Source of the DNA: Ascidia mentula
Taxonomy: Eukaryota; Chordata; Ascidiacea; Phlebobranchia; Ascidiidae
Direction of reading: 5' to 3'
Length of the DNA: 64,000 nucleotides
NCBI GenBank assembly: GCA_947561715.1
Contig: OX387197.1
Location: 21,044,266 to 21,108,265, forward strand
In this document: in pieces, positions 1 to 28,183 of the stretch
Layout of the letters: every line of letters begins with the position of its first letter
Position numbering within the stretch: the first letter of the stretch is position 1
Made by a program: the position numbers and the translations under genes
Notes under the pieces: model-generated
Told to the model about the DNA's origin: nothing
Database searches by the model: none
The model's input: the letters and a program-made list of their open reading frames with translations, nothing else

Positions 1-4
1 ACCA

Positions 5-19
5 CAGTTCTCGGAACTG
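5..19. other. Perfect hairpin, 6-bp stem
   Basis: CAGTTC, a TCG loop, then GAACTG. It recurs at the start of every unit. Its right arm is also part of an inverted match to a site about 1.06 kb upstream, on the far side of the nuclease ORF of the preceding unit. The function is unknown. Confidence 0.7.
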
Positions 20-129
20 CCCAAGGAGAATTGATCGTAATCACATAATGACAGTATCGTAGCTCACGCGGCGGCATTCTTACACTGTTTTGATTGTCTA
101 TAAATCTTTGGTTTCTGTGGCCCGAATTC

Positions 130-146
130 ATTCCACATCGTGGAAT
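130..146. other. Perfect hairpin, 7-bp stem
   Basis: ATTCCAC, loop ATC, GTGGAAT. It is present in all fifteen units. The region from 1 to 620 otherwise holds no ORF that stays open between unit types. Two short ORFs that appear there in some units exist only because of indels, so I treat it as non-coding. Confidence 0.65.
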
Positions 147-367
147 CGCTTCTCTGCGCTGGGCTTCTGCCTAGTGTAGTTTCACCATTCCATTCTATAT
201 TTTTGGTTCGCCTTTAGCGTAGAATCGCCGTCTGTTGCAGCCCACGATTGCATGCCTGCTGGGAACCAAAAAATGACAAATGTGTTTATACCCGTCCTGT
301 CATTTGTGGTGCTTGCCGAACACTTGCAAGGAGTACACTGCCTGTTGATGAAGCCTTAAAAGAAAGC

Positions 368-373
368 AATAAA
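368..373 (+). promoter_or_regulatory. Candidate polyadenylation signal AATAAA
   Basis: A canonical hexamer. In the array each copy lies about 460 bases downstream of the preceding unit's nuclease stop codon on the same strand, so it is a plausible 3' end signal for a nuclease transcript that crosses the unit boundary. In an AT-rich context this could be chance. Confidence 0.35.
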
Positions 374-394
374 TAGTAAAGGTGGTGCGCGAAC

Positions 395-433
395 ATATAT
401 ATATTAGTATATATATATATTTATTGTATATTA
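395..433. repeat. AT dinucleotide tract
   Basis: Interrupted (AT)n tract, broken once by TTAGT in type A units and by TTTTAGT in the others. This 2-bp difference is one of the haplotype markers. It separates the two AATAAA signals. Confidence 0.9.
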
Positions 434-445
434 TCTTGCCAGTGA

Positions 446-451
446 AATAAA
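446..451 (+). promoter_or_regulatory. Second candidate polyadenylation signal AATAAA
   Basis: A canonical hexamer just after the AT tract and followed within 30 bases by T- and G-containing sequence. It is the better placed of the two candidates for ending a transcript from the previous unit, before the transposase remnant starts at 621. Confidence 0.35.
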
Positions 452-620
452 GTGTTTACAACTGCAGGAGGTTCAATTACTTTTTTGGCCTTGAATAACA
501 GTACATGCAGGCAAGCAAGCACAAAATTATGTGTGCAGAAGTGTTGCCATGGCAATATGTGTTAAGATGCAAAGGAAAAAGCAGCAATTCTGGGAATATT
601 GGAAGTGCTAATAGCCATGA

Positions 621-2138
621 AAGGGTCAACGGCCTGCTGACCTGAAGCGGACAGAAAGAAAAACTTGTGCTGTTAATGCTCAACTGGGTCTAGCAATTCG
701 TGCCACTGGAATCAGTGTAATAACTACGCAAGTGTTTCTCAGCTACCTTGACCTGCCCTCACCCAGTGCCAGCGCAATTGTTGAATTGACCAGAAATGCC
801 TCTGTACACTTTGAGCTGGTGAATGAAAGCAATAGGCAAGCATTGCGCAATGATTGCATCCGAAGAAATGAACAATGTGGTCTTCCAGTTGAGCACCCAA
901 TCAATCTACAGTCTGACTGTCGCTACAATTTGCGCCAAGGCACAGGCAAGGCACACCTGGGTCAAGCAGCAAGCCAAATTGTGGGAATAACAGCAGAAAA
1001 TAGCAGTCCCGCCAAGGATGTTCTGGCTGTTTCAACCATGACAAGAAAGTCCAGGAACCCACGTTACATGAAGTCAAGGCAATTACTTTTTGATGAACAT
1101 TTGCCAATTGGCAACTTGGAATGGGACATCGGGCGTGAGTTGGGAGCCATTCTTTCCTGTCACAACTTGCAAGTTGGAGAAATTACCACTGATACCAACA
1201 GCAAGCTATTCGATGGGCTTTCTACATCACTCCACCAAAACCAAGACCCTGTTCAAAGGCACTGCATTGTACACAGGGCAAGATCTCTCTATCGTGCAGT
1301 TCGAAAAATCAATTTCAAACAGCTCTTCCCAGAGAAGGACCATCAACCCAAAGTGAAGAATCACCACACCAAGAAGCTGGCTGAGGAAAAACAAACTCAC
1401 CCAATGGCAGAATACGCTGGTTGTGTCAAGCAATATGACACAGACTATTCGGACATCAGCAGAAAGATGAAGGCGATTGTGAATGCTGCCATTAATTGCT
1501 TCCATGGAAATCACACAGGCTGCAAGGTCCACTCCTATGTTTGCAGAAGAAAAAAACCGCAAACATGGGTTTTCTGCAAGGCACATGGGATTGAAGATGA
1601 CCCAAGAAGATCAGCTAAGATGGAAAAAAGAAGTCAGCAAGTTTTTCACCACAGCAAATGTCTCCAGGATGAGGCCTGGACTTGACACGAGCAAATGTGA
1701 AAGTGTCAACTCAACCTTTAGCTATGTCAAGGGTAGGACATACTACTCCACCTGCAGTGTAGTACTTATCAGTAAACTAAACAGCTTTTCATTTACATTT
1801 TCTTCTATGTTTCACAGGGTTCTAGAGAAATTCAAGATAATTGGATATTGAACGTTGTTGGTTCTTAAACAACATATATACATTTTTTGACATTCTGTGG
1901 GAATCTAGCATTCTATGGAAAATCAGCTAGCATGCAACGACTTTATCTTCCACTGAACCTGTTTATGCAGCAATGCCATGCGAATGGTACTCATGGAACA
2001 CAGACAAAACGCAAGGAACTTTGTAATGGACATAAAGTAGCGGTGCTAACAGCATTTGACAGAACATACAACAATGTCAGAAGCGGTGTCCGACAGTCTT
2101 TGCCAAAAACATCAATTAAACCAGAATGCGGACTGTAA
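621..2138 (+). pseudogene. Mutator-like (MULE) transposase remnant, unit 1
   Basis: Related to the animal Mutator-like transposase domain family, cut-and-paste DNA transposases with a DDE catalytic core. The first frame is open from 621 to the stop at 1685; the part from 732 (a GTG codon) encodes 317 residues. It has no ATG before codon 103, so it looks like an internal exon or a truncated 5' end. Family features I recognise, from memory and not from a search: a helical block ending near residue 50; DCRYN at 62-66 (first Asp); GQAASQ at 77-82; a TTDTNS block with the second Asp at 154; and a Cys/His cluster C256, H261, C264, H267, C271. Similarity continues in the +1 frame after a seven-A run (1550-1556), reaching SKCESVN (1690-1710), where the third acidic residue of the family is expected. 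A C-terminal-like piece lies at 1887-2138. An intron-like segment (GT at 1733, AG at 1817) separates the last two, but joining across it soon meets a stop. The same layout is found in every unit. Most likely an inherited pseudogene; unusual splicing or frameshifting is possible. Confidence 0.65.
1733..1817 (+). other. Candidate spliceosomal intron in the transposase remnant
   Basis: 85 bp beginning GTAGGA and ending in a pyrimidine-rich run followed by TTTCACAG. It lies immediately after the conserved SKCESVN-type block, where similarity to the family ends abruptly. The conceptual join gives Gly-Phe then a stop in the arriving frame, so if it is a real intron the exon beyond is short or decayed. 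The equivalent segment is intact in all units. Confidence 0.35.
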
Positions 2139-2220
2139 AGCAATTTCCGCAAGCTAACCCCAAGAAGAGAAGAAAACATTACTACTACTAAACAACCATT
2201 TGTGGTGTAATGCAAGGTCA

Positions 2221-2252
<32 letters not shown>
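2221..2252. repeat. Compound microsatellite (CT)8(AT)8
   Basis: 32 bp. Counterparts in the other units have CT:AT counts of 11:5, 9:7, 10:6, 7:9 or 10:1(AC):5, always with a total of 16 dinucleotides. See the findings for the implication. Confidence 0.95.
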
Positions 2253-2639
2253 GACAGACCAGATTTCTTTGATATTGCAAACGTAGCATCACATTTTGTC
2301 ACAACATTTACACCTCTCAACTCCCATCGGGTTGCATTCATGAAACTGAGAATCTCGTATGGGTCATAATATCATGATGCAAGGGCGGACTGTCACAAAA
2401 CTAAACTATTAGAAAAGGTGAAAGCTAGAAACCCTTTCCACTTCGCTCAGCGAGCTATCTGACTTATCCACATTCCGTGGACGTGAATCGCAAGACATGT
2501 CATTTGTATAACTTTCCTAATATTTTACCGCGCCAAATCATTTCAACATGTTACCTGTTCCACCTCAGATTCCACTCTTTCACGATATTAGCAAAACACC
2601 ATTATTTTCCACGTAATCTTTCACCCTTGACAATCATTC

Positions 2640-2653
2640 TTTGGGATTTAATT
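2640..2653 (+). repeat. 14-bp direct repeat, copy 1
   Basis: TTTGGGATTTAATT, repeated exactly at 3268-3281, 628 bases away in the same unit. It lies in the 1.8 kb stretch (2139-3973) between the two gene modules, where I see no convincing coding frame. The short ORFs there are low-complexity or overlap on both strands. Confidence 0.5.
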
Positions 2654-3267
2654 TTGGTTTTACTTTTGTTTACAATTTTTTTTATTTCCAGTACACTATG
2701 TGACAAAATGTTTGAGGTTTCGAATTTTGTTGTAAATTTGTTTACTTTTTGTTGTAAACAAGCTTGACTAAAGCACGCCACAAACATGAGGTGTGAGGAA
2801 CAATTGTTGACAACGTGGATAATGCTTTTCACAAATACGTACATACATTGTTAGTTTACCTTGAGAATTCGGCTTACGAGAGGCGAGAGGGTCTCCACAT
2901 TGTTAGGAATTTCCCTTCTTGCACACCTCTTTAATGGTGAGCTGTTCTCATTGGCGTCGGGTATTTTCTTTATTGTTGGGGTGGGAAGCCACCAACCATC
3001 CTCTACACAATTCATGAAGAATTGGATGTCTTGTAATTGTCTTGGGGCCCCACCGGGGCTGTTTGTACACCCCCTAGGACTGACAATTTAGCAGTTAGCC
3101 TTTGCAAAACCCCCCAATGTGCTGTCTTAATGCAGCTGTAATCAATTTTTTTTCTGTTCAGCAATAGTAGTCCCCCTTCATGAGTCATCAGACCCGGCAA
3201 TTGTTTTTGGCAAACAAGAGAAACTGTAACCAGGTGCACAATAACAAATGACTTCTGAAACTCGATT

Positions 3268-3281
3268 TTTGGGATTTAATT
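3268..3281 (+). repeat. 14-bp direct repeat, copy 2
   Basis: Exact second copy of the motif at 2640-2653, a dozen bases before the CCTTAAGG palindrome and about 30 before the TATA box. Confidence 0.5.
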
Positions 3282-3292
3282 GAGAGATGCGG

Positions 3293-3307
3293 CCTTAAGG
3301 GCAGTTC
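3293..3307 (+). repeat. Left arm of inverted repeat flanking the nuclease module
   Basis: CCTTAAGGGCAGTTC, matched in inverted orientation by GAACTGCCCAAGG at 4340-4352 in the next unit (13 of 15 positions with a 2-base gap). The pair brackets the TATA box, the non-coding leader and the nuclease ORF in 1,060 bp. I found no convincing target-site duplication, so it could be chance. Confidence 0.35.
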
Positions 3308-3310
3308 TTG

Positions 3311-3318
3311 TATAAAAG
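3311..3318 (+). promoter_or_regulatory. TATA box, candidate promoter of the nuclease module
   Basis: TATAAAAG, a strong eukaryotic core promoter match, followed by a small hairpin (CGAGA/TCTCG with loop TGCATG). It lies 663 bases upstream of the nuclease ATG in every complete unit, except 657 in unit 14, which has a 6-bp deletion in between, and about 2.4 kb upstream in unit 13, which carries a transposon insertion. The long leader would need an intron or re-initiation for translation of the nuclease ORF. Confidence 0.4.
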
Positions 3319-3575
3319 CGAGATGCATGTCTCGGTTTGCAAAATACGCAATAGTCGCTACAACTTTTAATTTTCTTTTCCTAAGAAATTACCATAAATA
3401 ATTTTTTATTGCAACAGCAGTCCTGTTTAATGTTATGCTCGTGGTTACGTAAAATTTGCATGTACATTGCACCAACTTCTGCAAACTAGTAATGTACGAG
3501 GATTTTTGTAAATTTATTTGAGATTGCTGGGTGTTTGAACACCTTCCAACAACGTTACGGTTCCGTATTTTTTAA

Positions 3576-3596
3576 AATAAGGCGCCTTTCCTTATT
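3576..3596. other. Hairpin AATAAGG/CCTTATT containing palindrome AAGGCGCCTT
   Basis: A 7-bp perfect stem with a 7-base loop, overlapping a 10-bp perfect palindrome. The PIF/Harbinger-like insertion of unit 13 sits about 20 bases upstream of the equivalent hairpin. Confidence 0.5.
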
Positions 3597-3973
3597 AAAA
3601 TAAAACTGCTTTGTCGCGCCTCCTTCCAATGACTTCACATTCGCCTCAGCAAAAAGGGATGGCGATTTCTTGTCTTAGCTAGTTTTGCAATTTAAATATT
3701 AAGTAGAAGCTGAAAATATCATGAATATGTTTGTCGTAGGTGTACCTTATAGGCCTACAGACTAGTTAAAGAACAATGCGCCTTTTTTGTTAACTGTTGG
3801 CAGACATTATATTGTAGCAACAAATATATAGAAAAAATAAAATTAGGTGTGTTTTCCTAAAATACGTTTCAGTGTATGTTGTAAGTTATAATTAAGTAAA
3901 AAATGAATGATAAAATTAAGTTAGCAAAATCAAAGATTTTAAACCGCACCAAAACACATGGAAGTTGTAAGTC

Positions 3974-4237
3974 ATGGAAGGGGGCAAAACAGGTGCTGGA
4001 TATGGGGAAATACAATTTGCAGGAAAAAAGTTTGGCGTGCACCGTCTAGCTTACATGATTTTTGTTGAGGGAACTCTGAAACCTTTGCCAAAGTTCCTTG
4101 ACGTGAGCCACCGCTGCCACAAAAGCTTGTGCGTCAAACCAGGACGTCTAAGTCTTGAACCGAGGCGCATAAATATGTCTCGACGACGGTGCCGGATCCA
4201 CGGCACTTGCAGTGGGCATGGTAGCTACCATGTGTAA
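3974..4237 (+). CDS. His-Me finger (I-PpoI-like) zinc-binding nuclease domain protein, unit 1
   Basis: An 87-residue ORF starting at ATG, with an in-frame stop two codons upstream. It matches the zinc-binding His-Me finger endonuclease family typified by the homing enzyme I-PpoI, which cuts DNA using a His as general base and an Asn to hold the metal. Visible here: GYGEIQFAGKKFGVHRLAY at 9-27 (the first strands and the HR motif); SHRCHKSLC at 45-53; LSLEP at 59-63; N67; and a second Cys/His group C73, H76, C79, H82. The His46 to Asn67 spacing of 21 equals I-PpoI His98 to Asn119, and Cys48/Cys53/residue 58 keep the 5-residue spacing of Cys100/Cys105/His110. I-PpoI is 163 residues, so this is a compact version containing the core. 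In this unit residue 58 is Arg (CGT at 4145-4147) instead of the zinc-ligand His, so this copy may be impaired. Expression is unproven. Confidence 0.75.
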   Translation: MEGGKTGAGYGEIQFAGKKFGVHRLAYMIFVEGTLKPLPKFLDVSHRCHKSLCVKPGRLSLEPRRINMSRRRCRIHGTCSGHGSYHV

Positions 4238-4948
4238 CGTTTATGCTGTGACGTAGTGTTCACATTTACGTAATTTTCCATTAGGTAATGCAGAGTGACT
4301 TGCAGTTTTGTACCGCCCAGATAAATACCACAGTTCTCGGAACTGCCCAAGGAGAATTGATCGTAATCACATAATGACAGTATCGTAGCTCACGCGGCGG
4401 CATTCTTACACTGTTTTGATTGTCTATAAATCTTTGGTTTCTGTGGCCCGAATTCATTCCACATCGTGGAATCGCTACTCTGCGCTGGGCTTCTGCCTAG
4501 TGTAGTTTCACCATTCCATTCTATATTTTTGGTTCGCCTTTAGCGTAGAATCGCCGTCTGTTGCAGCCCACCATTGCATGCCTGCTGGGAACCAAAAAAT
4601 GACAAATGTGTTTATACCCGTCCTGTCATTTGTGGTGCTTGCCGAACACTTGCAAGGAGTACACTGCCTGTTGATGAAGCCTTAAAAGAAAGCAATAAAT
4701 AGTAAAGGTGGTGCGCGAACATATATATATTTTAGTATATATATATATTTATTGTATATTATCTTGCCAGTGAAATAAAGTGTTTACAACTGCAGGAGGT
4801 TCAATTACTTTTTTGGCCTTGAATAACAGTACATGCAGGCAAGCAAGCACAAAATTATGTGTGCAGAAGTGTTGCCATGGCAATATGTGTTAAGATGCAA
4901 AGGAAAAAGCAGCAATTCTGGGAATATTGGAAGTGCTAATAGCCATGA

Positions 4949-6466
4949 AAGGGTCAACGGCCTGCTGACCTGAAGCGGACAGAAAGAAAAACTTGTGCTG
5001 TTAATGCTCAACTGGGTCTAGCAATTCGTGCCACTGGAATCAGTGTAATAACTACGCAAGTGTTTCTCAGCTACCTTGACCTGCCCTCACCCAGTGCCAG
5101 CGCAATTGTTGAATTGACCAGAAATGCCTCTGTACACTTTGAGCTGGTGAATGAAAGCAATAGGCAAGCATTGCGCAATGATTGCATCCGAAGAAATGAA
5201 CAATGTGGTCTTCCAGTTGAGCACCCAATCAATCTACAGTCTGACTGTCGCTACAATTTGCGCCAAGGCACAGGCAAGGCACACCTGGGTCAAGCAGCAA
5301 GCCAAATTGTGGGAATAGCAGCAGAAAATAGCAGTCCCGCCAAGGATGTTCTGGCTGTTTCAACCATGACAAGAAAGTCCAGGAACCCACGTTACATGAA
5401 GTCAAGGCAATTACTTTTTGATGAACATTTGCCAATTGGCAACTTGGAATGGGACATCGGGCGTGAGTTGGGAGCCATTCTTTCCTGTCACAACTTGCAA
5501 GTTGGAGAAATTACCACTGATACCAACAGCAAGCTATTCGATGGGCTTTCTACATCACTCCACCAAAACCAAGACCCTGTTCAAAGGCACTGCATTGTAC
5601 ACAGGGCAAGATCTCTCTATCGTGCAGTTCGAAAAATCAATTTCAAACAGCTCTTCCCAGAGAAGGACCATCAACCCAAAGTGAAGAATCACCACACCAA
5701 GAAGCTGGCTGAGGAAAAACAAACTCACCCAATGGCAGAATACGCTGGTTGTGTCAAGCAATATGACACAGACTATTCGGACATCAGCAGAAAGATGAAG
5801 GCGATTGTGAATGCTGCCATTAATTGCTTCCATGGAAATCACACAGGCTGCAAGGTCCACTCCTATGTTTGCAGAAGAAAAAAACCGCAAACATGGGTTT
5901 TCTGCAAGGCACATGGGATTGAAGATGACCCAAGAAGATCAGCTAAGATGGAAAAAAGAAGTCAGCAAGTTTTTCACCACAGCAAATGTCTCCAGGATGA
6001 GGCCTGGACTTGACACGAGCAAATGTGAAAGTGTCAACTCAACCTTCAGCTATGTCAAGGGTAGGACATACTACTCCACCTGCAGTGTAGTACTTATCAG
6101 TAAACTAAACAGCTTTTCATTTACATTTTCTTCTATGTTTCACAGGGTTCTAGAGAAATTCAAGATAATTGGATATTGAACGTTGTTGGTTCTTAAACAA
6201 CATATATACATTTTTTGACATTCTGTGGGAATCTAGCATTCTATGGAAAATCAGCTAGCATGCAACGACTTTATCTTCCACTGAACCTGTTTATGCAGCA
6301 ATGCCATGCGAATGGTACTCATGGAACACAGACAAAACGCAAGGAACTTTGTAATGGACATAAAGTAGCGGTGCTAACAGCATTTGACAGAACATACAAC
6401 AATGTCAGAAGCGGTGTCCGACAGTCTTTGCCAAAAACATCAATTAAACCAGAATGCGGACTGTAA
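4949..6466 (+). pseudogene. Mutator-like transposase remnant, unit 2
   Basis: Same structure as the unit 1 copy: 317-residue frame 5060-6013 (no ATG start), continuation in another frame at 5811-6179, and C-terminal-like piece at 6215-6466. It differs from unit 1 by Ala for Thr at codon 87 and a silent-region T-to-C change near 6047. Confidence 0.65.
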
Positions 6467-6548
6467 AGCAATTTCCGCAAGCTAACCCCAAGAAGAGAAG
6501 AAAACATTACTACTACTAAACAACCATTTGTGGTGTAATGCAAGGTCA

Positions 6549-6580
<32 letters not shown>

Positions 6581-8301
6581 GACAGACCAGATTTCTTTGA
6601 TATTGCAAACGTAGCATCACATTTTGTCACAACATTTACACCTCTCAACTCCCATCGGGTTGCATTCATGAAACTGAGAATCTCGTATGGGTCATAATAT
6701 CATGATGCAAGGGCGGACTGTCACAAAACTAAACTATTAGAAAAGGTGAAAGCTAGAAACCCTTTCCACTTCGCTCAGCGAGCTATCTGACTTATCCACA
6801 TTCCGTGGACGTGAATCGCAAGACATGTCATTTGTATAACTTTCCTAATATTTTACCGCGCCAAATCATTTCAACATGTTACCTGTTCCACCTCAGATTC
6901 CACTCTTTCACGATATTAGCAAAACACCATTATTTTCCACGTAATCTTTCACCCTTGACAATCATTCTTTGGGATTTAATTTTGGTTTTACTTTTGTTTA
7001 CAATTTTTTTTATTTCCAGTACACTTTGTGACAAAATGTTTGAGGTTTCGAATTTTGTTGTAAATTTGTTTACTTTTTGTTGTAAACAAGCTTGACTAAA
7101 GCACGCCACAAACATGAGGTGTGAGGAACAATTGTTGACAACGTGGATAATGCTTTTCACAAATACGTACATACATTGTTAGTTTACCTTGAGAATTCGG
7201 CTTACGAGAGGCGAGAGGGTCTCCACATTGTTAGGAATTTCCCTTCTTGCACACCTCTTTAATGGTGAGCTGTTCTCATTGGCGTCGGGTATTTTCTTTA
7301 TTGTTGGGGTGGGAAGCCACCAACCATCCTCTACACAATTCATGAAGAATTGGATGTCTTGTAATTGTCTTGGGGCCCCACCGGGGCTGTTTGTACACCC
7401 CCTAGGACTGACAATTTAGCAGTTAGCCTTTGCAAAACCCCCCAATGTGCTGTCTTAATGCAGCTGTAATCAATTTTTTTTCTGTTCAGCAATAGTAGTC
7501 CCCCTTCATGAGTCATCAGACCCGGCAATTGTTTTTGGCAAACAAGAGAAACTGTAACCAGGTGCACAATAACAAATGACTTCTGAAACTCGATTTTTGG
7601 GATTTAATTGAGAGATGCGGCCTTAAGGGCAGTTCTTGTATAAAAGCGAGATGCATGTCTCGGTTTGCAAAATACGCAATAGTCGCTACAACTTTTAATT
7701 TTCTTTTCCTAAGAAATTACCATAAATAATTTTTTATTGCAACAGCAGTCCTGTTTAATGTTATGCTCGTGGTTACGTAAAATTTGCATGTACATTGCAC
7801 CAACTTCTGCAAACTAGTAATGTACGAGGATTTTTGTAAATTTATTTGAGATTGCTGGGTGTTTGAACACCTTCCAACAACGTTACGGTTCCGTATTTTT
7901 TAAAATAAGGCGCCTTTCCTTATTAAAATAAAACTGCTTTGTCGCGCCTCCTTCCAATGACTTCACATTCGCCTCAGCAAAAAGGGATGGCGATTTCTTG
8001 TCTTAGCTAGTTTTGCAATTTAAATATTAAGTAGAAGCTGAAAATATCATGAATATGTTTGTCGTAGGTGTACCTTATAGGCCTACAGACTAGTTAAAGA
8101 ACAATGCGCCTTTTTTGTTAACTGTTGGCAGACATTATATTGTAGCAACAAATATATAGAAAAAATAAAATTAGGTGTGTTTTCCTAAAATACGTTTCAG
8201 TGTATGTTGTAAGTTATAATTAAGTAAAAAATGAATGATAAAATTAAGTTAGCAAAATCAAAGATTTTAAACCGCACCAAAACACATGGAAGTTGTAAGT
8301 C

Positions 8302-8565
8302 ATGGAAGGGGGCAAAACAGGTGCTGGATATGGGGAAATACAATTTGCAGGAAAAAAGTTTGGCGTGCACCGTCTAGCTTACATGATTTTTGTTGAGGGA
8401 ACTCTGAAACCTTTGCCAAAGTTCCTTGACGTGAGCCACCGCTGCCACAAAAGCTTGTGCGTCAAACCAGGACATCTAAGTCTTGAACCGAGGCGCATAA
8501 ATATGTCTCGACGACGGTGCCGGATCCACGGCACTTGCAGTGGGCATGGTAGCTACCATGTGTAA
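8302..8565 (+). CDS. His-Me finger nuclease domain protein, unit 2
   Basis: 87 residues. It carries His58, so all expected zinc ligands (Cys48, Cys53, His58; Cys73, His76, Cys79, His82) and the catalytic pair His46/Asn67 are present. This is the majority sequence of the array. Confidence 0.78.
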   Translation: MEGGKTGAGYGEIQFAGKKFGVHRLAYMIFVEGTLKPLPKFLDVSHRCHKSLCVKPGHLSLEPRRINMSRRRCRIHGTCSGHGSYHV

Positions 8566-9267
8566 CGTTTATGCTGTGACGTAGTGTTCACATTTACGTA
8601 ATTTTCCATTAGGTAATGCAGAGTGACTTGCAGTTTTGTACCGCCCAGATAAATACCACAGTTCTCGGAACTGCCCAAGGAGAATTGATCGTAATCACAT
8701 AATGACAGTATCGTAGCTCACGCGGCGGCATTCTTACACTGTTTTGATTGTCTATAAATCTTTGGTTTCTGTGGCCCGAATTCATTCCACATCGTGGAAT
8801 CGCTACTCTGCGCTGGGCTTCTGCCTAGTGTGTAGTTTCACCATTCCATTCTATATTTTTAGCGTAGAATCGCCGTCTGTTGCAGCCCACCATTGCATGC
8901 CTGCTGGGAACCAAAAAATGACAAATGTGTTTATACCCGTCCTGTCATTTGTGGTGCTTGCCGAACACTTGCAAGGAGTACACTGCCTGTTGATGAAGCC
9001 TTAAAAGAAAGCAATAAATAGTAAAGGTGGTGCGCGAACATATATATATTTTAGTATATATATATATTTATTGTATATTATCTTGCCAGTGAAATAAAGT
9101 GTTTACAACTGCAGGAGGTTCAATTACTTTTTTGGCCTTGAATAACAGTACATGCAGGCAAGCAAGCACAAAATTATGTGTGCAGAAGTGTTGCCATGGC
9201 AATATGTGTTAAGATGCAAAGGAAAAAGCAGCAATTCTGGGAATATTGGAAGTGCTAATAGCCATGA

Positions 9268-10785
9268 AAGGGTCAACGGCCTGCTGACCTGAAGCGGACA
9301 GAAAGAAAAACTTGTGCTGTTAATGCTCAACTGGGTCTAGCAATTCGTGCCACTGGAATCAGTGTAATAACTACGCAAGTGTTTCTCAGCTACCTTGACC
9401 TGCCCTCACCCAGTGCCAGCGCAATTGTTGAATTGACCAGAAATGCCTCTGTACACTTTGAGCTGGTGAATGAAAGCAATAGGCAAGCATTGCGCAATGA
9501 TTGCATCCGAAGAAATGAACAATGTGGTCTTCCAGTTGAGCACCCAATCAATCTACAGTCTGACTGTCGCTACAATTTGCGCCAAGGCACAGGCAAGGCA
9601 CACCTGGGTCAAGCAGCAAGCCAAATTGTGGGAATAGCAGCAGAAAATAGCAGTCCCGCCAAGGATGTTCTGGCTGTTTCAACCATGACAAGAAAGTCCA
9701 GGAACCCACGTTACATGAAGTCAAGGCAATTACTTTTTGATGAACATTTGCCAATTGGCAACTTGGAATGGGACATCGGGCGTGAGTTGGGAGCCATTCT
9801 TTCCTGTCACAACTTGCAAGTTGGAGAAATTACCACTGATACCAACAGCAAGCTATTCGATGGGCTTTCTACATCACTCCACCAAAACCAAGACCCTGTT
9901 CAAAGGCACTGCATTGTACACAGGGCAAGATCTCTCTATCGTGCAGTTCGAAAAATCAATTTCAAACAGCTCTTCCCAGAGAAGGACCATCAACCCAAAG
10001 TGAAGAATCACCACACCAAGAAGCTGGCTGAGGAAAAACAAACTCACCCAATGGCAGAATACGCTGGTTGTGTCAAGCAATATGACACAGACTATTCGGA
10101 CATCAGCAGAAAGATGAAGGCGATTGTGAATGCTGCCATTAATTGCTTCCATGGAAATCACACAGGCTGCAAGGTCCACTCCTATGTTTGCAGAAGAAAA
10201 AAACCGCAAACATGGGTTTTCTGCAAGGCACATGGGATTGAAGATGACCCAAGAAGATCAGCTAAGATGGAAAAAAGAAGTCAGCAAGTTTTTCACCACA
10301 GCAAATGTCTCCAGGATGAGGCCTGGACTTGACACGAGCAAATGTGAAAGTGTCAACTCAACCTTCAGCTATGTCAAGGGTAGGACATACTACTCCACCT
10401 GCAGTGTAGTACTTATCAGTAAACTAAACAGCTTTTCATTTACATTTTCTTCTATGTTTCACAGGGTTCTAGAGAAATTCAAGATAATTGGATATTGAAC
10501 GTTGTTGGTTCTTAAACAACATATATACATTTTTTGACATTCTGTGGGAATCTAGCATTCTATGGAAAATCAGCTAGCATGCAACGACTTTATCTTCCAC
10601 TGAACCTGTTTATGCAGCAATGCCATGCGAATGGTACTCATGGAACACAGACAAAACGCAAGGAACTTTGTAATGGACATAAAGTAGCGGTGCTAACAGC
10701 ATTTGACAGAACATACAACAATGTCAGAAGCGGTGTCCGACAGTCTTTGCCAAAAACATCAATTAAACCAGAATGCGGACTGTAA
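9268..10785 (+). pseudogene. Mutator-like transposase remnant, unit 3
   Basis: 317-residue frame 9379-10332 with Ala87. Downstream pieces at 10130-10498 and 10534-10785. Same frame break as the other units. Confidence 0.65.
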
Positions 10786-10867
10786 AGCAATTTCCGCAAG
10801 CTAACCCCAAGAAGAGAAGAAAACATTACTACTACTAAACAACCATTTGTGGTGTAATGCAAGGTCA

Positions 10868-10899
<32 letters not shown>

Positions 10900-12620
10900 G
10901 ACAGACCAGATTTCTTTGATATTGCAAACGTAGCATCACATTTTGTCACAACATTTACACCTCTCAACTCCCATCGGGTTGCATTCATGAAACTGAGAAT
11001 CTCGTATGGGTCATAATATCATGATGCAAGGGCGGACTGTCACAAAACTAAACTATTAGAAAAGGTGAAAGCTAGAAACCCTTTCCACTTCGCTCAGCGA
11101 GCTATCTGACTTATCTACATTCCGTGGACGTGAATCGCAAGACATGTCATTTGTATAACTTTCCTAATATTTTACCGCGCCAAATCATTTCAACATGTTA
11201 CCTGTTCCACCTCAGATTCCACTCTTTCACGATATTAGCAAAACACCATTATTTTCCACGTAATCTTTCACCCTTGACAATCATTCTTTGGGATTTAATT
11301 TTGGTTTTACTTTTGTTTACAATTTTTTTTATTTCCAGTACACTATGTGACAAAATGTTTGAGGTTTCGAATTTTGTTGTAAATTTGTTTACTTTTTGTT
11401 GTAAACAAGCTTGACTAAAGCACGCCACAAACATGAGGTGTGAGGAACAATTGTTGACAACGTGGATAATGCTTTTCACAAATACGTACATACATTGTTA
11501 GTTTACCTTGAGAATTCGGCTTACGAGAGGCGAGAGGGTCTCCACATTGTTAGGAATTTCCCTTCTTGCACACCTCTTTAATGGTGAGCTGTTCTCATTG
11601 GCGTCGGGTATTTTCTTTATTGTTGGGGTGGGAAGCCACCAACCATCCTCTACACAATTCATGAAGAATTGGATGTCTTGTAATTGTCTTGGGGCCCCAC
11701 CGGGGCTGTTTGTACACCCCCTAGGACTGACAATTTAGCAGTTAGCCTTTGCAAAACCCCCCAATGTGCTGTCTTAATGCAGCTGTAATCAATTTTTTTT
11801 CTGTTCAGCAATAGTAGTCCCCCTTCATGAGTCATCAGACCCGGCAATTGTTTTTGGCAAACAAGAGAAACTGTAACCAGGTGCACAATAACAAATGACT
11901 TCTGAAACTCGATTTTTGGGATTTAATTGAGAGATGCGGCCTTAAGGGCAGTTCTTGTATAAAAGCGAGATGCATGTCTCGGTTTGCAAAATACGCAATA
12001 GTCGCTACAACTTTTAATTTTCTTTTCCTAAGAAATTACCATAAATAATTTTTTATTGCAACAGCAGTCCTGTTTAATGTTATGCTCGTGGTTACGTAAA
12101 ATTTGCATGTACATTGCACCAACTTCTGCAAACTAGTAATGTACGAGGATTTTTGTAAATTTATTTGAGATTGCTGGGTGTTTGAACACCTTCCAACAAC
12201 GTTACGGTTCCGTATTTTTTAAAATAAGGCGCCTTTCCTTATTAAAATAAAACTGCTTTGTCGCGCCTCCTTCCAATGACTTCACATTCGCCTCAGCAAA
12301 AAGGGATGGCGATTTCTTGTCTTAGCTAGTTTTGCAATTTAAATATTAAGTAGAAGCTGAAAATATCATGAATATGTTTGTCGTAGGTGTACCTTATAGG
12401 CCTACAGACTAGTTAAAGAACAATGCGCCTTTTTTGTTAACTGTTGGCAGACATTATATTGTAGCAACAAATATATAGAAAAAATAAAATTAGGTGTGTT
12501 TTCCTAAAATACGTTTCAGTGTATGTTGTAAGTTATAATTAAGTAAAAAATGAATGATAAAATTAAGTTAGCAAAATCAAAGATTTTAAACCGCACCAAA
12601 ACACATGGAAGTTGTAAGTC

Positions 12621-12884
12621 ATGGAAGGGGGCAAAACAGGTGCTGGATATGGGGAAATACAATTTGCAGGAAAAAAGTTTGGCGTGCACCGTCTAGCTTA
12701 CATGATTTTTGTTGAGGGAACTCTGAAACCTTTGCCAAAGTTCCTTGACGTGAGCCACCGCTGCCACAAAAGCTTGTGCGTCAAACCAGGACATCTAAGT
12801 CTTGAACCGAGGCGCATAAATATGTCTCGACGACGGTGCCGGATCCACGGCACTTGCAGTGGGCATGGTAGCTACCATGTGTAA
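12621..12884 (+). CDS. His-Me finger nuclease domain protein, unit 3
   Basis: Majority 87-residue sequence with His58; identical in protein sequence to the unit 2 copy. Confidence 0.78.
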   Translation: MEGGKTGAGYGEIQFAGKKFGVHRLAYMIFVEGTLKPLPKFLDVSHRCHKSLCVKPGHLSLEPRRINMSRRRCRIHGTCSGHGSYHV

Positions 12885-13586
12885 CGTTTATGCTGTGACG
12901 TAGTGTTCACATTTACGTAATTTTCCATTAGGTAATGCAGAGTGACTTGCAGTTTTGTACCGCCCAGATAAATACCACAGTTCTCGGAACTGCCCAAGGA
13001 GAATTGATCGTAATCACATAATGACAGTATCGTAGCTCACGCGGCGGCATTCTTACACTGTTTTGATTGTCTATAAATCTTTGGTTTCTGTGGCCCGAAT
13101 TCATTCCACATCGTGGAATCGCTACTCTGCGCTGGGCTTCTGCCTAGTGTGTAGTTTCACCATTCCATTCTATATTTTTAGCGTAGAATCGCCGTCTGTT
13201 GCAGCCCACCATTGCATGCCTGCTGGGAACCAAAAAATGACAAATGTGTTTATACCCGTCCTGTCATTTGTGGTGCTTGCCGAACACTTGCAAGGAGTAC
13301 ACTGCCTGTTGATGAAGCCTTAAAAGAAAGCAATAAATAGTAAAGGTGGTGCGCGAACATATATATATTTTAGTATATATATATATTTATTGTATATTAT
13401 CTTGCCAGTGAAATAAAGTGTTTACAACTGCAGGAGGTTCAATTACTTTTTTGGCCTTGAATAACAGTACATGCAGGCAAGCAAGCACAAAATTATGTGT
13501 GCAGAAGTGTTGCCATGGCAATATGTGTTAAGATGCAAAGGAAAAAGCAGCAATTCTGGGAATATTGGAAGTGCTAATAGCCATGA

Positions 13587-15104
13587 AAGGGTCAACGGCC
13601 TGCTGACCTGAAGCGGACAGAAAGAAAAACTTGTGCTGTTAATGCTCAACTGGGTCTAGCAATTCGTGCCACTGGAATCAGTGTAATAACTACGCAAGTG
13701 TTTCTCAGCTACCTTGACCTGCCCTCACCCAGTGCCAGCGCAATTGTTGAATTGACCAGAAATGCCTCTGTACACTTTGAGCTGGTGAATGAAAGCAATA
13801 GGCAAGCATTGCGCAATGATTGCATCCGAAGAAATGAACAATGTGGTCTTCCAGTTGAGCACCCAATCAATCTACAGTCTGACTGTCGCTACAATTTGCG
13901 CCAAGGCACAGGCAAGGCACACCTGGGTCAAGCAGCAAGCCAAATTGTGGGAATAGCAGCAGAAAATAGCAGTCCCGCCAAGGATGTTCTGGCTGTTTCA
14001 ACCATGACAAGAAAGTCCAGGAACCCACGTTACATGAAGTCAAGGCAATTACTTTTTGATGAACATTTGCCAATTGGCAACTTGGAATGGGACATCGGGC
14101 GTGAGTTGGGAGCCATTCTTTCCTGTCACAACTTGCAAGTTGGAGAAATTACCACTGATACCAACAGCAAGCTATTCGATGGGCTTTCTACATCACTCCA
14201 CCAAAACCAAGACCCTGTTCAAAGGCACTGCATTGTACACAGGGCAAGATCTCTCTATCGTGCAGTTCGAAAAATCAATTTCAAACAGCTCTTCCCAGAG
14301 AAGGACCATCAACCCAAAGTGAAGAATCACCACACCAAGAAGCTGGCTGAGGAAAAACAAACTCACCCAATGGCAGAATACGCTGGTTGTGTCAAGCAAT
14401 ATGACACAGACTATTCGGACATCAGCAGAAAGATGAAGGCGATTGTGAATGCTGCCATTAATTGCTTCCATGGAAATCACACAGGCTGCAAGGTCCACTC
14501 CTATGTTTGCAGAAGAAAAAAACCGCAAACATGGGTTTTCTGCAAGGCACATGGGATTGAAGATGACCCAAGAAGATCAGCTAAGATGGAAAAAAGAAGT
14601 CAGCAAGTTTTTCACCACAGCAAATGTCTCCAGGATGAGGCCTGGACTTGACACGAGCAAATGTGAAAGTGTCAACTCAACCTTCAGCTATGTCAAGGGT
14701 AGGACATACTACTCCACCTGCAGTGTAGTACTTATCAGTAAACTAAACAGCTTTTCATTTACATTTTCTTCTATGTTTCACAGGGTTCTAGAGAAATTCA
14801 AGATAATTGGATATTGAACGTTGTTGGTTCTTAAACAACATATATACATTTTTTGACATTCTGTGGGAATCTAGCATTCTATGGAAAATCAGCTAGCATG
14901 CAACGACTTTATCTTCCACTGAACCTGTTTATGCAGCAATGCCATGCGAATGGTACTCATGGAACACAGACAAAACGCAAGGAACTTTGTAATGGACATA
15001 AAGTAGCGGTGCTAACAGCATTTGACAGAACATACAACAATGTCAGAAGCGGTGTCCGACAGTCTTTGCCAAAAACATCAATTAAACCAGAATGCGGACT
15101 GTAA
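13587..15104 (+). pseudogene. Mutator-like transposase remnant, unit 4
   Basis: 317-residue frame 13698-14651 with Ala87. Other-frame pieces at 14449-14817 and 14853-15104. Confidence 0.65.
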
Positions 15105-15186
15105 AGCAATTTCCGCAAGCTAACCCCAAGAAGAGAAGAAAACATTACTACTACTAAACAACCATTTGTGGTGTAATGCAAGGTCA

Positions 15187-15219
<33 letters not shown>

Positions 15220-16939
15220 ACAGACCAGATTTCTTTGATATTGCAAACGTAGCATCACATTTTGTCACAACATTTACACCTCTCAACTCCCATCGGGTTG
15301 CATTCATGAAACTGAGAATCTCGTATGGGTCATAATATCATGATGCAAGGGCGGACTGTCACAAAACTAAACTATTAGAAAAGGTGAAAGCTAGAAACCC
15401 TTTCCACTTCGCTCAGCGAGCTATCTGACTTATCTACATTCCGTGGACGTGAATCGCAAGACATGTCATTTGTATAACTTTCCTAATATTTTACCGCGCC
15501 AAATCATTTCAACATGTTACCTGTTCCACCTCAGATTCCACTCTTTCACGATATTAGCAAAACACCATTATTTTCCACGTAATCTTTCACCCTTGACAAT
15601 CATTCTTTGGGATTTAATTTTGGTTTTACTTTTGTTTACAATTTTTTTTATTTCCAGTACACTATGTGACAAAATGTTTGAGGTTTCGAATTTTGTTGTA
15701 AATTTGTTTACTTTTTGTTGTAAACAAGCTTGACTAAAGCACGCCACAAACATGAGGTGTGAGGAACAATTGTTGACAACGTGGATAATGCTTTTCACAA
15801 ATACGTACATACATTGTTAGTTTACCTTGAGAATTCGGCTTACGAGAGGCGAGAGGGTCTCCACATTGTTAGGAATTTCCCTTCTTGCACACCTCTTTAA
15901 TGGTGAGCTGTTCTCATTGGCGTCGGGTATTTTCTTTATTGTTGGGGTGGGAAGCCACCAACCATCCTCTACACAATTCATGAAGAATTGGATGTCTTGT
16001 AATTGTCTTGGGGCCCCACCGGGGCTGTTTGTACACCCCCTAGGACTGACAATTTAGCAGTTAGCCTTTGCAAAACCCCCCAATGTGCTGTCTTAATGCA
16101 GCTGTAATCAATTTTTTTTCTGTTCAGCAATAGTAGTCCCCCTTCATGAGTCATCAGACCCGGCAATTGTTTTTGGCAAACAAGAGAAACTGTAACCAGG
16201 TGCACAATAACAAATGACTTCTGAAACTCGATTTTTGGGATTTAATTGAGAGATGCGGCCTTAAGGGCAGTTCTTGTATAAAAGCGAGATGCATGTCTCG
16301 GTTTGCAAAATACGCAATAGTCGCTACAACTTTTAATTTTCTTTTCCTAAGAAATTACCATAAATAATTTTTTATTGCAACAGCAGTCCTGTTTAATGTT
16401 ATGCTCGTGGTTACGTAAAATTTGCATGTACATTGCACCAACTTCTGCAAACTAGTAATGTACGAGGATTTTTGTAAATTTATTTGAGATTGCTGGGTGT
16501 TTGAACACCTTCCAACAACGTTACGGTTCCGTATTTTTTAAAATAAGGCGCCTTTCCTTATTAAAATAAAACTGCTTTGTCGCGCCTCCTTCCAATGACT
16601 TCACATTCGCCTCAGCAAAAAGGGATGGCGATTTCTTGTCTTAGCTAGTTTTGCAATTTAAATATTAAGTAGAAGCTGAAAATATCATGAATATGTTTGT
16701 CGTAGGTGTACCTTATAGGCCTACAGACTAGTTAAAGAACAATGCGCCTTTTTTGTTAACTGTTGGCAGACATTATATTGTAGCAACAAATATATAGAAA
16801 AAATAAAATTAGGTGTGTTTTCCTAAAATACGTTTCAGTGTATGTTGTAAGTTATAATTAAGTAAAAAATGAATGATAAAATTAAGTTAGCAAAATCAAA
16901 GATTTTAAACCGCACCAAAACACATGGAAGTTGTAAGTC

Positions 16940-17203
16940 ATGGAAGGGGGCAAAACAGGTGCTGGATATGGGGAAATACAATTTGCAGGAAAAAAGTTTG
17001 GCGTGCACCGTCTAGCTTACATGATTTTTGTTGAGGGAACTCTGAAACCTTTGCCAAAGTTCCTTGACGTGAGCCACCGCTGCCACAAAAGCTTGTGCGT
17101 CAAACCAGGACATCTAAGTCTTGAACCGAGGCGCATAAATATGTCTCGACGACGGTGCCGGATCCACGGCACTTGCAGTGGGCATGGTAGCTACCATGTG
17201 TAA
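16940..17203 (+). CDS. His-Me finger nuclease domain protein, unit 4
   Basis: Majority sequence, His58 present, full ligand set. Confidence 0.78.
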   Translation: MEGGKTGAGYGEIQFAGKKFGVHRLAYMIFVEGTLKPLPKFLDVSHRCHKSLCVKPGHLSLEPRRINMSRRRCRIHGTCSGHGSYHV

Positions 17204-17912
17204 CGTTTATGCTGTGACGTAGTGTTCACATTTACGTAATTTTCCATTAGGTAATGCAGAGTGACTTGCAGTTTTGTACCGCCCAGATAAATACCACAGT
17301 TCTCGGAACTGCCCAAGGAGAATTGATCGTAATCACATAATGACAGTATCGTAGCTCACGCGGCGGCATTCTTACACTGTTTTGATTGTCTATAAATCTT
17401 TGGTTTCTGTGGCCCGAATTCATTCCACATCGTGGAATCGCTTCTCTGCGCTGGGCTTCTGCCTAGTGTAGTTTCACCATTCCATTCTATATTTTTGGTT
17501 CGCCTTTAGCGTAGAATCGCCGTCTGTTGCAGCCCACGATTGCATGCCTGCTGGGAACCAAAAAATGACAAATGTGTTTATACCCGTCCTGTCATTTGTG
17601 GTGCTTGCCGAACACTTGCAAGGAGTACACTGCCTGTTGATGAAGCCTTAAAAGAAAGCAATAAATAGTAAAGGTGGTGCGCGAACATATATATATTAGT
17701 ATATATATATATTTATTGTATATTATCTTGCCAGTGAAATAAAGTGTTTACAACTGCAGGAGGTTCAATTACTTTTTTGGCCTTGAATAACAGTACATGC
17801 AGGCAAGCAAGCACAAAATTATGTGTGCAGAAGTGTTGCCATGGCAATATGTGTTAAGATGCAAAGGAAAAAGCAGCAATTCTGGGAATATTGGAAGTGC
17901 TAATAGCCATGA

Positions 17913-19430
17913 AAGGGTCAACGGCCTGCTGACCTGAAGCGGACAGAAAGAAAAACTTGTGCTGTTAATGCTCAACTGGGTCTAGCAATTCGTGCCACTG
18001 GAATCAGTGTAATAACTACGCAAGTGTTTCTCAGCTACCTTGACCTGCCCTCACCCAGTGCCAGCGCAATTGTTGAATTGACCAGAAATGCCTCTGTACA
18101 CTTTGAGCTGGTGAATGAAAGCAATAGGCAAGCATTGCGCAATGATTGCATCCGAAGAAATGAACAATGTGGTCTTCCAGTTGAGCACCCAATCAATCTA
18201 CAGTCTGACTGTCGCTACAATTTGCGCCAAGGCACAGGCAAGGCACACCTGGGTCAAGCAGCAAGCCAAATTGTGGGAATAACAGCAGAAAATAGCAGTC
18301 CCGCCAAGGATGTTCTGGCTGTTTCAACCATGACAAGAAAGTCCAGGAACCCACGTTACATGAAGTCAAGGCAATTACTTTTTGATGAACATTTGCCAAT
18401 TGGCAACTTGGAATGGGACATCGGGCGTGAGTTGGGAGCCATTCTTTCCTGTCACAACTTGCAAGTTGGAGAAATTACCACTGATACCAACAGCAAGCTA
18501 TTCGATGGGCTTTCTACATCACTCCACCAAAACCAAGACCCTGTTCAAAGGCACTGCATTGTACACAGGGCAAGATCTCTCTATCGTGCAGTTCGAAAAA
18601 TCAATTTCAAACAGCTCTTCCCAGAGAAGGACCATCAACCCAAAGTGAAGAATCACCACACCAAGAAGCTGGCTGAGGAAAAACAAACTCACCCAATGGC
18701 AGAATACGCTGGTTGTGTCAAGCAATATGACACAGACTATTCGGACATCAGCAGAAAGATGAAGGCGATTGTGAATGCTGCCATTAATTGCTTCCATGGA
18801 AATCACACAGGCTGCAAGGTCCACTCCTATGTTTGCAGAAGAAAAAAACCGCAAACATGGGTTTTCTGCAAGGCACATGGGATTGAAGATGACCCAAGAA
18901 GATCAGCTAAGATGGAAAAAAGAAGTCAGCAAGTTTTTCACCACAGCAAATGTCTCCAGGATGAGGCCTGGACTTGACACGAGCAAATGTGAAAGTGTCA
19001 ACTCAACCTTCAGCTATGTCAAGGGTAGGACATACTACTCCACCTGCAGTGTAGTACTTATCAGTAAACTAAACAGCTTTTCATTTACATTTTCTTCTAT
19101 GTTTCACAGGGTTCTAGAGAAATTCAAGATAATTGGATATTGAACGTTGTTGGTTCTTAAACAACATATATACATTTTTTGACATTCTGTGGGAATCTAG
19201 CATTCTATGGAAAATCAGCTAGCATGCAACGACTTTATCTTCCACTGAACCTGTTTATGCAGCAATGCCATGCGAATGGTACTCATGGAACACAGACAAA
19301 ACGCAAGGAACTTTGTAATGGACATAAAGTAGCGGTGCTAACAGCATTTGACAGAACATACAACAATGTCAGAAGCGGTGTCCGACAGTCTTTGCCAAAA
19401 ACATCAATTAAACCAGAATGCGGACTGTAA
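17913..19430 (+). pseudogene. Mutator-like transposase remnant, unit 5 (contains the A/B switch)
   Basis: 317-residue frame 18024-18977 with Thr87 (type A), but downstream of the frame it has the C at 19011 typical of non-A units. The recombination breakpoint is therefore inside the transposase region. Confidence 0.65.
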
Positions 19431-19512
19431 AGCAATTTCCGCAAGCTAACCCCAAGAAGAGAAGAAAACATTACTACTACTAAACAACCATTTGTGGTGT
19501 AATGCAAGGTCA

Positions 19513-19544
<32 letters not shown>

Positions 19545-21265
19545 GACAGACCAGATTTCTTTGATATTGCAAACGTAGCATCACATTTTGTCACAACATT
19601 TACACCTCTCAACTCCCATCGGGTTGCATTCATGAAACTGAGAATCTCGTATGGGTCATAATATCATGATGCAAGGGCGGACTGTCACAAAACTAAACTA
19701 TTAGAAAAGGTGAAAGCTAGAAACCCTTTCCACTTCGCTCAGCGAGCTATCTGACTTATCCACATTCCGTGGACGTGAATCGCAAGACATGTCATTTGTA
19801 TAACTTTCCTAATATTTTACCGCGCCAAATCATTTCAACATGTTACCTGTTCCACCTCAGATTCCACTCTTTCACGATATTAGCAAAACACCATTATTTT
19901 CCACGTAATCTTTCACCCTTGACAATCATTCTTTGGGATTTAATTTTGGTTTTACTTTTGTTTACAATTTTTTTTATTTCCAGTACACTTTGTGACAAAA
20001 TGTTTGAGGTTTCGAATTTTGTTGTAAATTTGTTTACTTTTTGTTGTAAACAAGCTTGACTAAAGCACGCCACAAACATGAGGTGTGAGGAACAATTGTT
20101 GACAACGTGGATAATGCTTTTCACAAATACGTACATACATTGTTAGTTTACCTTGAGAATTCGGCTTACGAGAGGCGAGAGGGTCTCCACATTGTTAGGA
20201 ATTTCCCTTCTTGCACACCTCTTTAATGGTGAGCTGTTCTCATTGGCGTCGGGTATTTTCTTTATTGTTGGGGTGGGAAGCCACCAACCATCCTCTACAC
20301 AATTCATGAAGAATTGGATGTCTTGTAATTGTCTTGGGGCCCCACCGGGGCTGTTTGTACACCCCCTAGGACTGACAATTTAGCAGTTAGCCTTTGCAAA
20401 ACCCCCCAATGTGCTGTCTTAATGCAGCTGTAATCAATTTTTTTTCTGTTCAGCAATAGTAGTCCCCCTTCATGAGTCATCAGACCCGGCAATTGTTTTT
20501 GGCAAACAAGAGAAACTGTAACCAGGTGCACAATAACAAATGACTTCTGAAACTCGATTTTTGGGATTTAATTGAGAGATGCGGCCTTAAGGGCAGTTCT
20601 TGTATAAAAGCGAGATGCATGTCTCGGTTTGCAAAATACGCAATAGTCGCTACAACTTTTAATTTTCTTTTCCTAAGAAATTACCATAAATAATTTTTTA
20701 TTGCAACAGCAGTCCTGTTTAATGTTATGCTCGTGGTTACGTAAAATTTGCATGTACATTGCACCAACTTCTGCAAACTAGTAATGTACGAGGATTTTTG
20801 TAAATTTATTTGAGATTGCTGGGTGTTTGAACACCTTCCAACAACGTTACGGTTCCGTATTTTTTAAAATAAGGCGCCTTTCCTTATTAAAATAAAACTG
20901 CTTTGTCGCGCCTCCTTCCAATGACTTCACATTCGCCTCAGCAAAAAGGGATGGCGATTTCTTGTCTTAGCTAGTTTTGCAATTTAAATATTAAGTAGAA
21001 GCTGAAAATATCATGAATATGTTTGTCGTAGGTGTACCTTATAGGCCTACAGACTAGTTAAAGAACAATGCGCCTTTTTTGTTAACTGTTGGCAGACATT
21101 ATATTGTAGCAACAAATATATAGAAAAAATAAAATTAGGTGTGTTTTCCTAAAATACGTTTCAGTGTATGTTGTAAGTTATAATTAAGTAAAAAATGAAT
21201 GATAAAATTAAGTTAGCAAAATCAAAGATTTTAAACCGCACCAAAACACATGGAAGTTGTAAGTC

Positions 21266-21529
21266 ATGGAAGGGGGCAAAACAGGTGCTGGATATGGGGA
21301 AATACAATTTGCAGGAAAAAAGTTTGGCGTGCACCGTCTAGCTTACATGATTTTTGTTGAGGGAACTCTGAAACCTTTGCCAAAGTTCCTTGACGTGAGC
21401 CACCGCTGCCACAAAAGCTTGTGCGTCAAACCAGGACATCTAAGTCTTGAACCGAGGCGCATAAATATGTCTCGACGACGGTGCCGGATCCACGGCACTT
21501 GCAGTGGGCATGGTAGCTACCATGTGTAA
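21266..21529 (+). CDS. His-Me finger nuclease domain protein, unit 5
   Basis: His58 present, unlike the type A units 1 and 14, which agrees with this unit's tail being type B. Confidence 0.78.
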   Translation: MEGGKTGAGYGEIQFAGKKFGVHRLAYMIFVEGTLKPLPKFLDVSHRCHKSLCVKPGHLSLEPRRINMSRRRCRIHGTCSGHGSYHV

Positions 21530-23749: not shown

Positions 23750-23831
23750 AGCAATTTCCGCAAGCTAACCCCAAGAAGAGAAGAAAACATTACTACTACT
23801 AAACAACCATTTGTGGTGTAATGCAAGGTCA

Positions 23832-23863
<32 letters not shown>

Positions 23864-28150: not shown

Positions 28151-28183
<33 letters not shown>

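Follow-up and report, generated by a model that had tools for sequence, protein, structure and literature searches.

The tandem array and its two genes

The stretch of Ascidia mentula DNA analysed here (64,000 nucleotides, hereafter the window; assembly GCA_947561715.1, contig OX387197.1, positions 21,044,266 to 21,108,265 of the forward strand) belongs from end to end to a single same-strand tandem array with a unit of approximately 4.32 kb, and its complete units carry the remnant of a transposase gene together with an I-PpoI-like His-Me nuclease frame. Fourteen complete units and one partial unit are present, spaced at 4317-4328 bp apart from one unit that measures 6047 bp owing to an insertion, and their identity to unit 1 is 99.4-99.9%. 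A search of the genome (195.8 Mb, 79 contigs; contigs and fetched loci are cited below by C and L numbers) extended the array to at least C1:20.985-21.206 Mb. The transposase remnant was recovered there at full length in 42 copies with an identity of at least 99%, along with 41 copies of the nuclease with an 88-aa frame and two with a 112-aa frame; these counts are lower bounds, to which broken copies of either gene have to be added.

Both genes were recognized by Pfam search above the curated cut-offs. The open reading frame (ORF) at 621-1685 matches PF20700 ('Mutator', E 7.4e-22) and the ORF at 3971-4237 matches PF05551 (zf-His_Me_endon, E 2.4e-9), which bears out the initial annotation both in these two profile assignments and in the presence of the pair on one strand in every complete unit. 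The gap between the genes, put there at 1.8 kb, is approximately 2.3 kb, and the nuclease frame ends approximately 0.7 kb upstream of the transposase frame of the following unit. Features of the first two units are collected in Table 1.

Table 1. Features of the array in the window. The deletion junction and the truncated long terminal direct repeat (LTDR) were measured in unit 2 (junction 627-634) and shifted by 2 to unit 1.
Feature	Position	Strand	Basis
Part of tandem array, unit ~4.32 kb, 14 complete units and a partial one	1..64000	+	sequence self-comparison, genome search
Unit 1, transposase remnant, 354-aa frame, PF20700, presumed first two catalytic D	621..1685	+	profile match; catalytic residues by motif
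Unit 1, second transposase frame after frameshift, presumed catalytic E (KCESVNS)	1483..1851	+	
Unit 1, deletion junction, 655 bp of L009 (3168-3822) absent	625..632	.	comparison with L009
Unit 1, LTDR truncated to its first ~310 of ~833 bp, 96.1% identity to L012 LTDR	2985..3295	-	
Unit 1, nuclease-side end of the internal region of another subfamily, 95.5% identity to L021	3296..4237	+	
Unit 1, His-Me (I-PpoI-like) nuclease frame, 88 aa, PF05551	3971..4237	+	
Unit 2, transposase remnant	4949..6013	+	
Unit 2, nuclease frame, zinc-ligand His present	8299..8565	+	

Neither the transposase nor the nuclease looks intact in the window, and both look disabled. Compared with the neighbouring locus L009, a stretch of 655 bp that includes the beginning of the transposase gene is missing from the unit. 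The presumed catalytic E motif sits in a different frame from the transposase ORF, the A-run at the frame change being identical in all 15 units; the catalytic residues of unit 1 were assigned by motif, on a pattern that we take to be the applicable one. In each of the 14 complete units a shortened G-run precedes the start of the nuclease frame and leaves the N-terminal Cys out of frame; in the same 14 units the nuclease frame stops at SYHV, ahead of the last Cys found in relatives such as L031. Of the zinc ligands, the first and the last Cys are absent from the window nuclease frames, and in units 1 and 14 a zinc-ligand His is replaced by Arg.

The 1.73-kb insertion in one unit (window 55398-57124) is bounded by imperfect inverted ends of 19 bp (GGCCGGGTCCACAC...) and flanked by a duplicated TTA; judging by its ends we take it to be Harbinger-like. 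Its end is also found in L001, the unit immediately left of the window, and the insertion was therefore copied along with the array.

Dispersed copies of the two-gene element

Genome searches with the Pfam families returned 50 matches to PF20700 and 58 to PF05551, all at loci also found with the window proteins, and no further PF20700 or PF05551 family was seen among them. Fifteen dispersed transposase loci (L009-L017, L026-L030 and L032; further transposase fragments on C71 lie outside this sample) and seven nuclease-only loci (L020-L025 and L031) were fetched for comparison. Nuclease sequence lies within 3 kb of the transposase and convergent with it at 12 of the 15 transposase loci, three of which (L011-L013) are duplicates of one insertion; in L013 and L014 the nuclease is only a fragment. 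This convergent arrangement is unlike that of the array, in which the two genes lie ~2.3 kb apart on one strand.

The copy at L010 (C2:1.281-1.287 Mb) is shown by its frames and repeats to be intact-looking, with a transposase gene and a His-Me nuclease gene pointing towards each other between two LTDRs. The transposase frame is open over 587 aa (PF20700, E 3.4e-32), and the nuclease frame is open as well (PF05551, E 7.9e-13). By motif, D216, D308, HCIVH and E477 were assigned in the transposase; C217 is the sole Cys between D216 and D308, if both D are correctly assigned in this way. Alignment of the nuclease identifies C35, H83, C85, C90, H95, N104, C110, C116, H119 and C125, which, from the roles of such residues in I-PpoI, we take to be the catalytic His and Asn and eight zinc-binding His and Cys.

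Ratios of nonsynonymous to synonymous substitution (dN/dS, Nei-Gojobori) of the nuclease were 0.30-0.45 for the eight pairs among L010, L011, L012, L015 and L016 with a synonymous divergence (dS) above 0.4, and 0.26-0.50 once the partial sequences L024, L025 and L026 were included. The recent pair L011-L012 gave 1.08 and L010-L026 gave 0.76, and over the full table the values range from 0 to 4.07, the extremes being pairs with very few differences; the pairs are non-independent, and comparisons with the array-type nuclease are saturated at silent sites. Such values fit a gene that would be needed during the spread of the element and free to decay later.

Among viral contigs the nuclease query found six relatives with 35-42% identity; the loci of these six held nothing better than chance-level transposase matches (E >1). 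Queries with the transposase found no relative among the viral contigs, nor was one found in the PDB. The nuclease shares the SHxC...C...H...N core of I-PpoI and the His-Cys box enzymes, in agreement with the PF05551 match above cut-off. The direct resemblance to I-PpoI is weak, an eight-sequence profile aligning to its residues 94-125 with E 0.25-0.4. In contrast to the group I intron-encoded homing endonucleases of the His-Cys box type, the nuclease is encoded here by a transposon, and its window copies lack zinc ligands.

A cluster of array-type nuclease-bearing internal ends lies at C71:13.86-14.01 Mb (L020-L023), with neither a transposase nor a recognised LTDR found within the fetched stretch. 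The homology of L020, L021 and L031 ends near the LTDR boundary.

A described element does pair a transposase with an I-PpoI-like nuclease, namely KolobokP (Kojima & Bao 2022, Mob DNA 13:24; PMC9587614), contrary to the earlier statement that no described element combines the two.

Terminal repeats and target duplications of composite copies

Pairs of LTDRs were found in L010, L011, L012 and L015 and, by shorter matches, in L013, L016 and L017. The two repeats of L010 are 99.4% identical over 843 bp as aligned and measure 832 bp between AGGACC and GTCCT. Within-copy identity amounts to 96.8% in L012 (555 bp), 95% in L011 (402 bp) and 80% in L015 (689 bp), and the identity between the LTDRs of L010, L012 and L015 is 61-64% over the longest matches. 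The LTDRs each end in short inverted sequences, which read AGGCCGCATCTCT...AGAGATGCGGCCT in solo copies, with AG...CT termini, and the junction of the repeat with the internal region aligns through in L010, in L015 and in the L051 array described below.

A 2-bp target duplication is present outside four of the five composite insertions for which both ends were found, and two of these are clear-cut: the outermost flanks read GT/GT in L010 and GA/GA in L011-L013. In both cases the inner flanks differ from the outer ones, which argues that the composite moved as a unit. Instead of the terminal inverted repeats and 8-11 bp duplications around the gene pair that had been envisaged, the element has direct LTDRs and 2-bp duplications.

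The direct repeats were also considered as long terminal repeats of a retrotransposon. This was rejected, as inspection by eye showed no reverse-transcriptase-like frame among the listed frames of L010 and placed that of L011 inside an interrupted LTDR.

Solo repeats and arrays of short elements

A first look with two repeat types gave 1483 and 1382 LTDR candidates, of which 39 and 40 were scored. Twenty-five solo LTDRs, a non-random set taken among the best-scoring matches, were examined for their flanks; L063/L064, at an internal-LTDR-internal junction, and L069/L070, with the same flanks as L067/L068, were left out of it. An exact 2-bp duplication flanks 17 of the 25, against 2.4 expected from cross-paired flanks, and a 3-bp duplication flanks none. 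All 18 solo copies that were fetched whole measure 829-834 bp.

The abundance of solo repeats, which far outnumber the two-gene copies, raises the alternative that the approximately 833-bp repeats are an independent non-autonomous transposon merely flanking a nuclease-bearing Mutator-like element, the composite being incidental. Repeat type and internal type are indeed uncoupled at times (the LTDR of the array unit is 96% identical to that of L012, and the nucleases 46%), and at L033 one repeat is placed at the extreme end of another. We consider this explanation improbable in view of the duplications outside the repeat pair with mismatched inner flanks in L010 and L011-L013, the junction that aligns through in three places, and the far greater likeness of the repeats within a copy than between copies, all of which speak for a composite that moves as one element.

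Composite elements also occur in a shortened, arrayed form. In the array at C52:10.73 Mb (L051, C52:10.744-10.750 Mb) the LTDR alternates with a 1058-bp spacer. The outer parts of this spacer, ~137 bp at its start and ~160 bp at its finish, resemble the two ends of the internal region of the two-gene element (60-70%), and the array is thus built from a short version of the element. The end of the internal region recurs in further arrays with a period of ~1890 bp on C1, C2 and C52 (40 of 133 candidates scored), and these arrays are satellites made of non-autonomous composites. One array, at C2:2.99-3.03 Mb, has TT/TT as its outermost flanks.

Arrays of this period lie at L051, C52:0.61, C52:21.41, C2:2.99-3.03 and C1:25.08 Mb and combine the LTDR (or its internal neighbour) with a short internal region. 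At L052 (C2:2.063-2.071 Mb) a complete LTDR stands within a segment of ~6.0 kb whose spacer is unlike the transposon internal region, and the repeated entity seems to be the ~6.0-kb segment. The spacer of another LTDR-bearing array at C52:10.60 Mb is likewise unlike the internal region (by eye, one junction). L063/L064 (C70:3.809 Mb) has internal-region sequence on either side of an LTDR, a junction expected from a multimer or an integrated circle.

Chimeric origin and amplification of the unit

Two stretches of the transposase part of the window unit match L015 at 95.4% and 94.5% identity, and the nuclease part of the unit is 95.5% identical to L021 over 945 bp, whereas the L015 nuclease is only 50% identical to the array-type nuclease; the unit therefore joins two subfamilies. 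On these alignments it is shown to be a secondary chimera, with genes drawn from different subfamilies and a truncated LTDR. The truncated LTDR is 96.1% identical to that of L012, but the L012 nuclease is only 46% identical to the array type, so that either the lineages have exchanged repeats or the junction was the target of a solo LTDR insertion. A precedent for a solo LTDR landing at such a position is L033, where one LTDR is inserted at the very end of another.

The opposite view, that two unrelated genes were accidentally joined in the array, could appeal to the origin of its parts in different subfamilies and to an orientation unlike that of dispersed copies. Both subfamilies, however, lie within the same two-gene family, the nuclease accompanies the transposase at 12 of 15 fetched loci, and the pairing has been published in seven animal phyla (PMC9587614). 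An accidental association, contradicted by the dispersed convergent pairs, is to be regarded as extremely improbable; only the array's own spacing stays accidental.

A complete LTDR is absent from the array unit, and its amplification accordingly needs another cause than LTDR exchange, which would most simply be unequal exchange between units. The initial annotation had suggested that the nuclease could alter the copy number of its own array, an idea that resembles the 'induced unequal crossover' put forward by Kojima & Bao for multimers of KolobokP (PMC9587614). Growth of the window array through cuts by its own nuclease, provoking unequal exchange, could draw on the 88-aa open nuclease domain in the unit and on that proposal, which was made for intact elements. 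The window frames, however, are without two zinc-ligand Cys (the first and the last), with a His missing too in two units, and a complete LTDR is absent from the unit; we hold this route to be very improbable and prefer ordinary unequal exchange.

Other features of the window and the host genome

A search of window positions 1-9000 against Rfam returned only two sub-threshold matches to SCARNA7 (E 0.13), which were discarded because they scored 20.1 bits where the gathering score is 65. Nine large contigs of 15-28 Mb make up ~192 of the 196 Mb of the assembly. The association of cellulose synthase and GH6 domain is characteristic of tunicates. Two matches to GH6 (PF01341) occur in the genome, one of which has a cellulose synthase ORF (PF03552, E 5e-7; PF13632, E 2.7e-17) ~2 kb upstream on the same strand (L093 and L091, C71:8.037-8.049 Mb), in keeping with a tunicate host.

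Relationship to KolobokP and proposed mechanism

The family shares many features with KolobokP. Dispersed copies follow the LTDR-internal-LTDR plan, of which the window unit keeps only a truncated LTDR, and each LTDR is bounded by short inverted sequences (11-18 bp in KolobokP) with 5'-RR and YY-3' termini. The transposase is, by motif, of the DDD/E type with C/DxxH between the second D and the E. The nuclease lies downstream on the complementary strand at the 12 convergent loci, in contrast to the one-strand window unit, and in L010 it has the catalytic His and Asn and the eight zinc-binding His and Cys, of which the window copies lack the first and last Cys and, in units 1 and 14, a His. Solo LTDRs and (LTDR-INT)n-LTDR multimers (INT, internal region) with duplications at their extremes, here in one array, are likewise common to both. 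Among Chordata, KolobokP has been described only from Branchiostoma (PMC9587614), as against a tunicate here, and no tunicate KolobokP was found in the openly licensed literature.

The initial label of the element as a Mutator-like element (MULE) appears doubtful. The PF20700 match and the CxxH motif after the second D are shared with MULEs, and PF20700 presumably also covers Kolobok-type transposases. The long terminal repeats are direct here and inverted in MULEs, and the duplications differ in length: according to Dupeyron et al. (2019; PMC6446971), MULEs have target duplications of 8-11 bp, against 2 bp here, and accessory ORFs are common. Table 1 of that paper holds no nuclease ORF and the text no word starting with 'nuclease'.

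We therefore regard the window unit as very probably the remains of a KolobokP-like family of composite DNA transposons. Several observations weigh against this interpretation. The LTDRs measure 829-834 bp, compared with ~450 or ~660 bp in KolobokP; the target duplication is 2 bp, compared with 3-4 or 4-5 bp; and the CCHC finger that follows the first catalytic D of KolobokP is absent, given the motif-based assignment of the first two D. Since these three features differ, the family is called a KolobokP-like variant and not KolobokP proper; its way of working is that of KolobokP, of which it is probably a divergent relative. L009 keeps the same-strand gene order of the array, L030 and L032 have no nuclease within the fetched stretch, and the nuclease occurs without a transposase at seven fetched loci. 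As for the composite insertions, L015 has TA/TA outside, yet its inner flanks fit TA equally well; L017 reads TT/TT only if the first base has changed; and the outer flanks of L016, TC/TA, give no matching duplication. Eight of the 25 solo LTDRs lack a duplication, all with TCA after the 3' end. Finally, an array without a complete LTDR means that the LTDR model leaves the array's own amplification unexplained.

The duplication-less solo LTDRs are L038, L041, L043, L048, L049, L053, L061 and L065, and five of the eight have TTA or CTTA before the 5' end, resembling the inner flanks of the composite. The internal region of L010 after the left LTDR also reads TCA. The TCA exceptions may be related to the loss of 1-5 bp of flank at excision reported for KolobokP by Kojima & Bao (PMC9587614).

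As a mechanism for the KolobokP-like family, the transposase would act on the ends of LTDRs and thereby move an LTDR alone or a complete LTDR-internal-LTDR unit. Multimers would arise, and paired LTDRs would be kept alike, through LTDR-LTDR exchange that nuclease cuts may have triggered. Ordinary unequal exchange would then have multiplied a joint of two subfamilies, with both genes disabled, to 42 or more copies. The earlier suggestion of a two-gene transposon that became arrayed holds in so far as dispersed pairs do lie between LTDRs; it fails in that the gene order of the array is same-strand instead of convergent and its unit is chimeric. A bolder proposal, which we consider rather unlikely, would see here a separate Kolobok-type composite lineage, characterized by the missing CCHC finger, the 2-bp duplication and the ~833-bp LTDRs. 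Tandem arrays of the type (LTDR-INT)n, enlarged and held uniform through cuts of the nuclease, would be its normal donor state. From any pair of LTDR ends in them the transposase would take a single LTDR or an LTDR-INT-LTDR unit, and large satellites like that of the window would be by-products of the amplification driven by the nuclease.

These findings add a tunicate to the animals with composite DNA transposons that bear a nuclease, and indicate that LTDR length and target duplication are more variable than reported. Since an intact-looking composite, solo LTDRs, arrays of a short version and a large family-derived satellite are all found in one chromosome-scale assembly, the proposed role of a homing-type nuclease in the growth of arrays becomes testable within a single animal.

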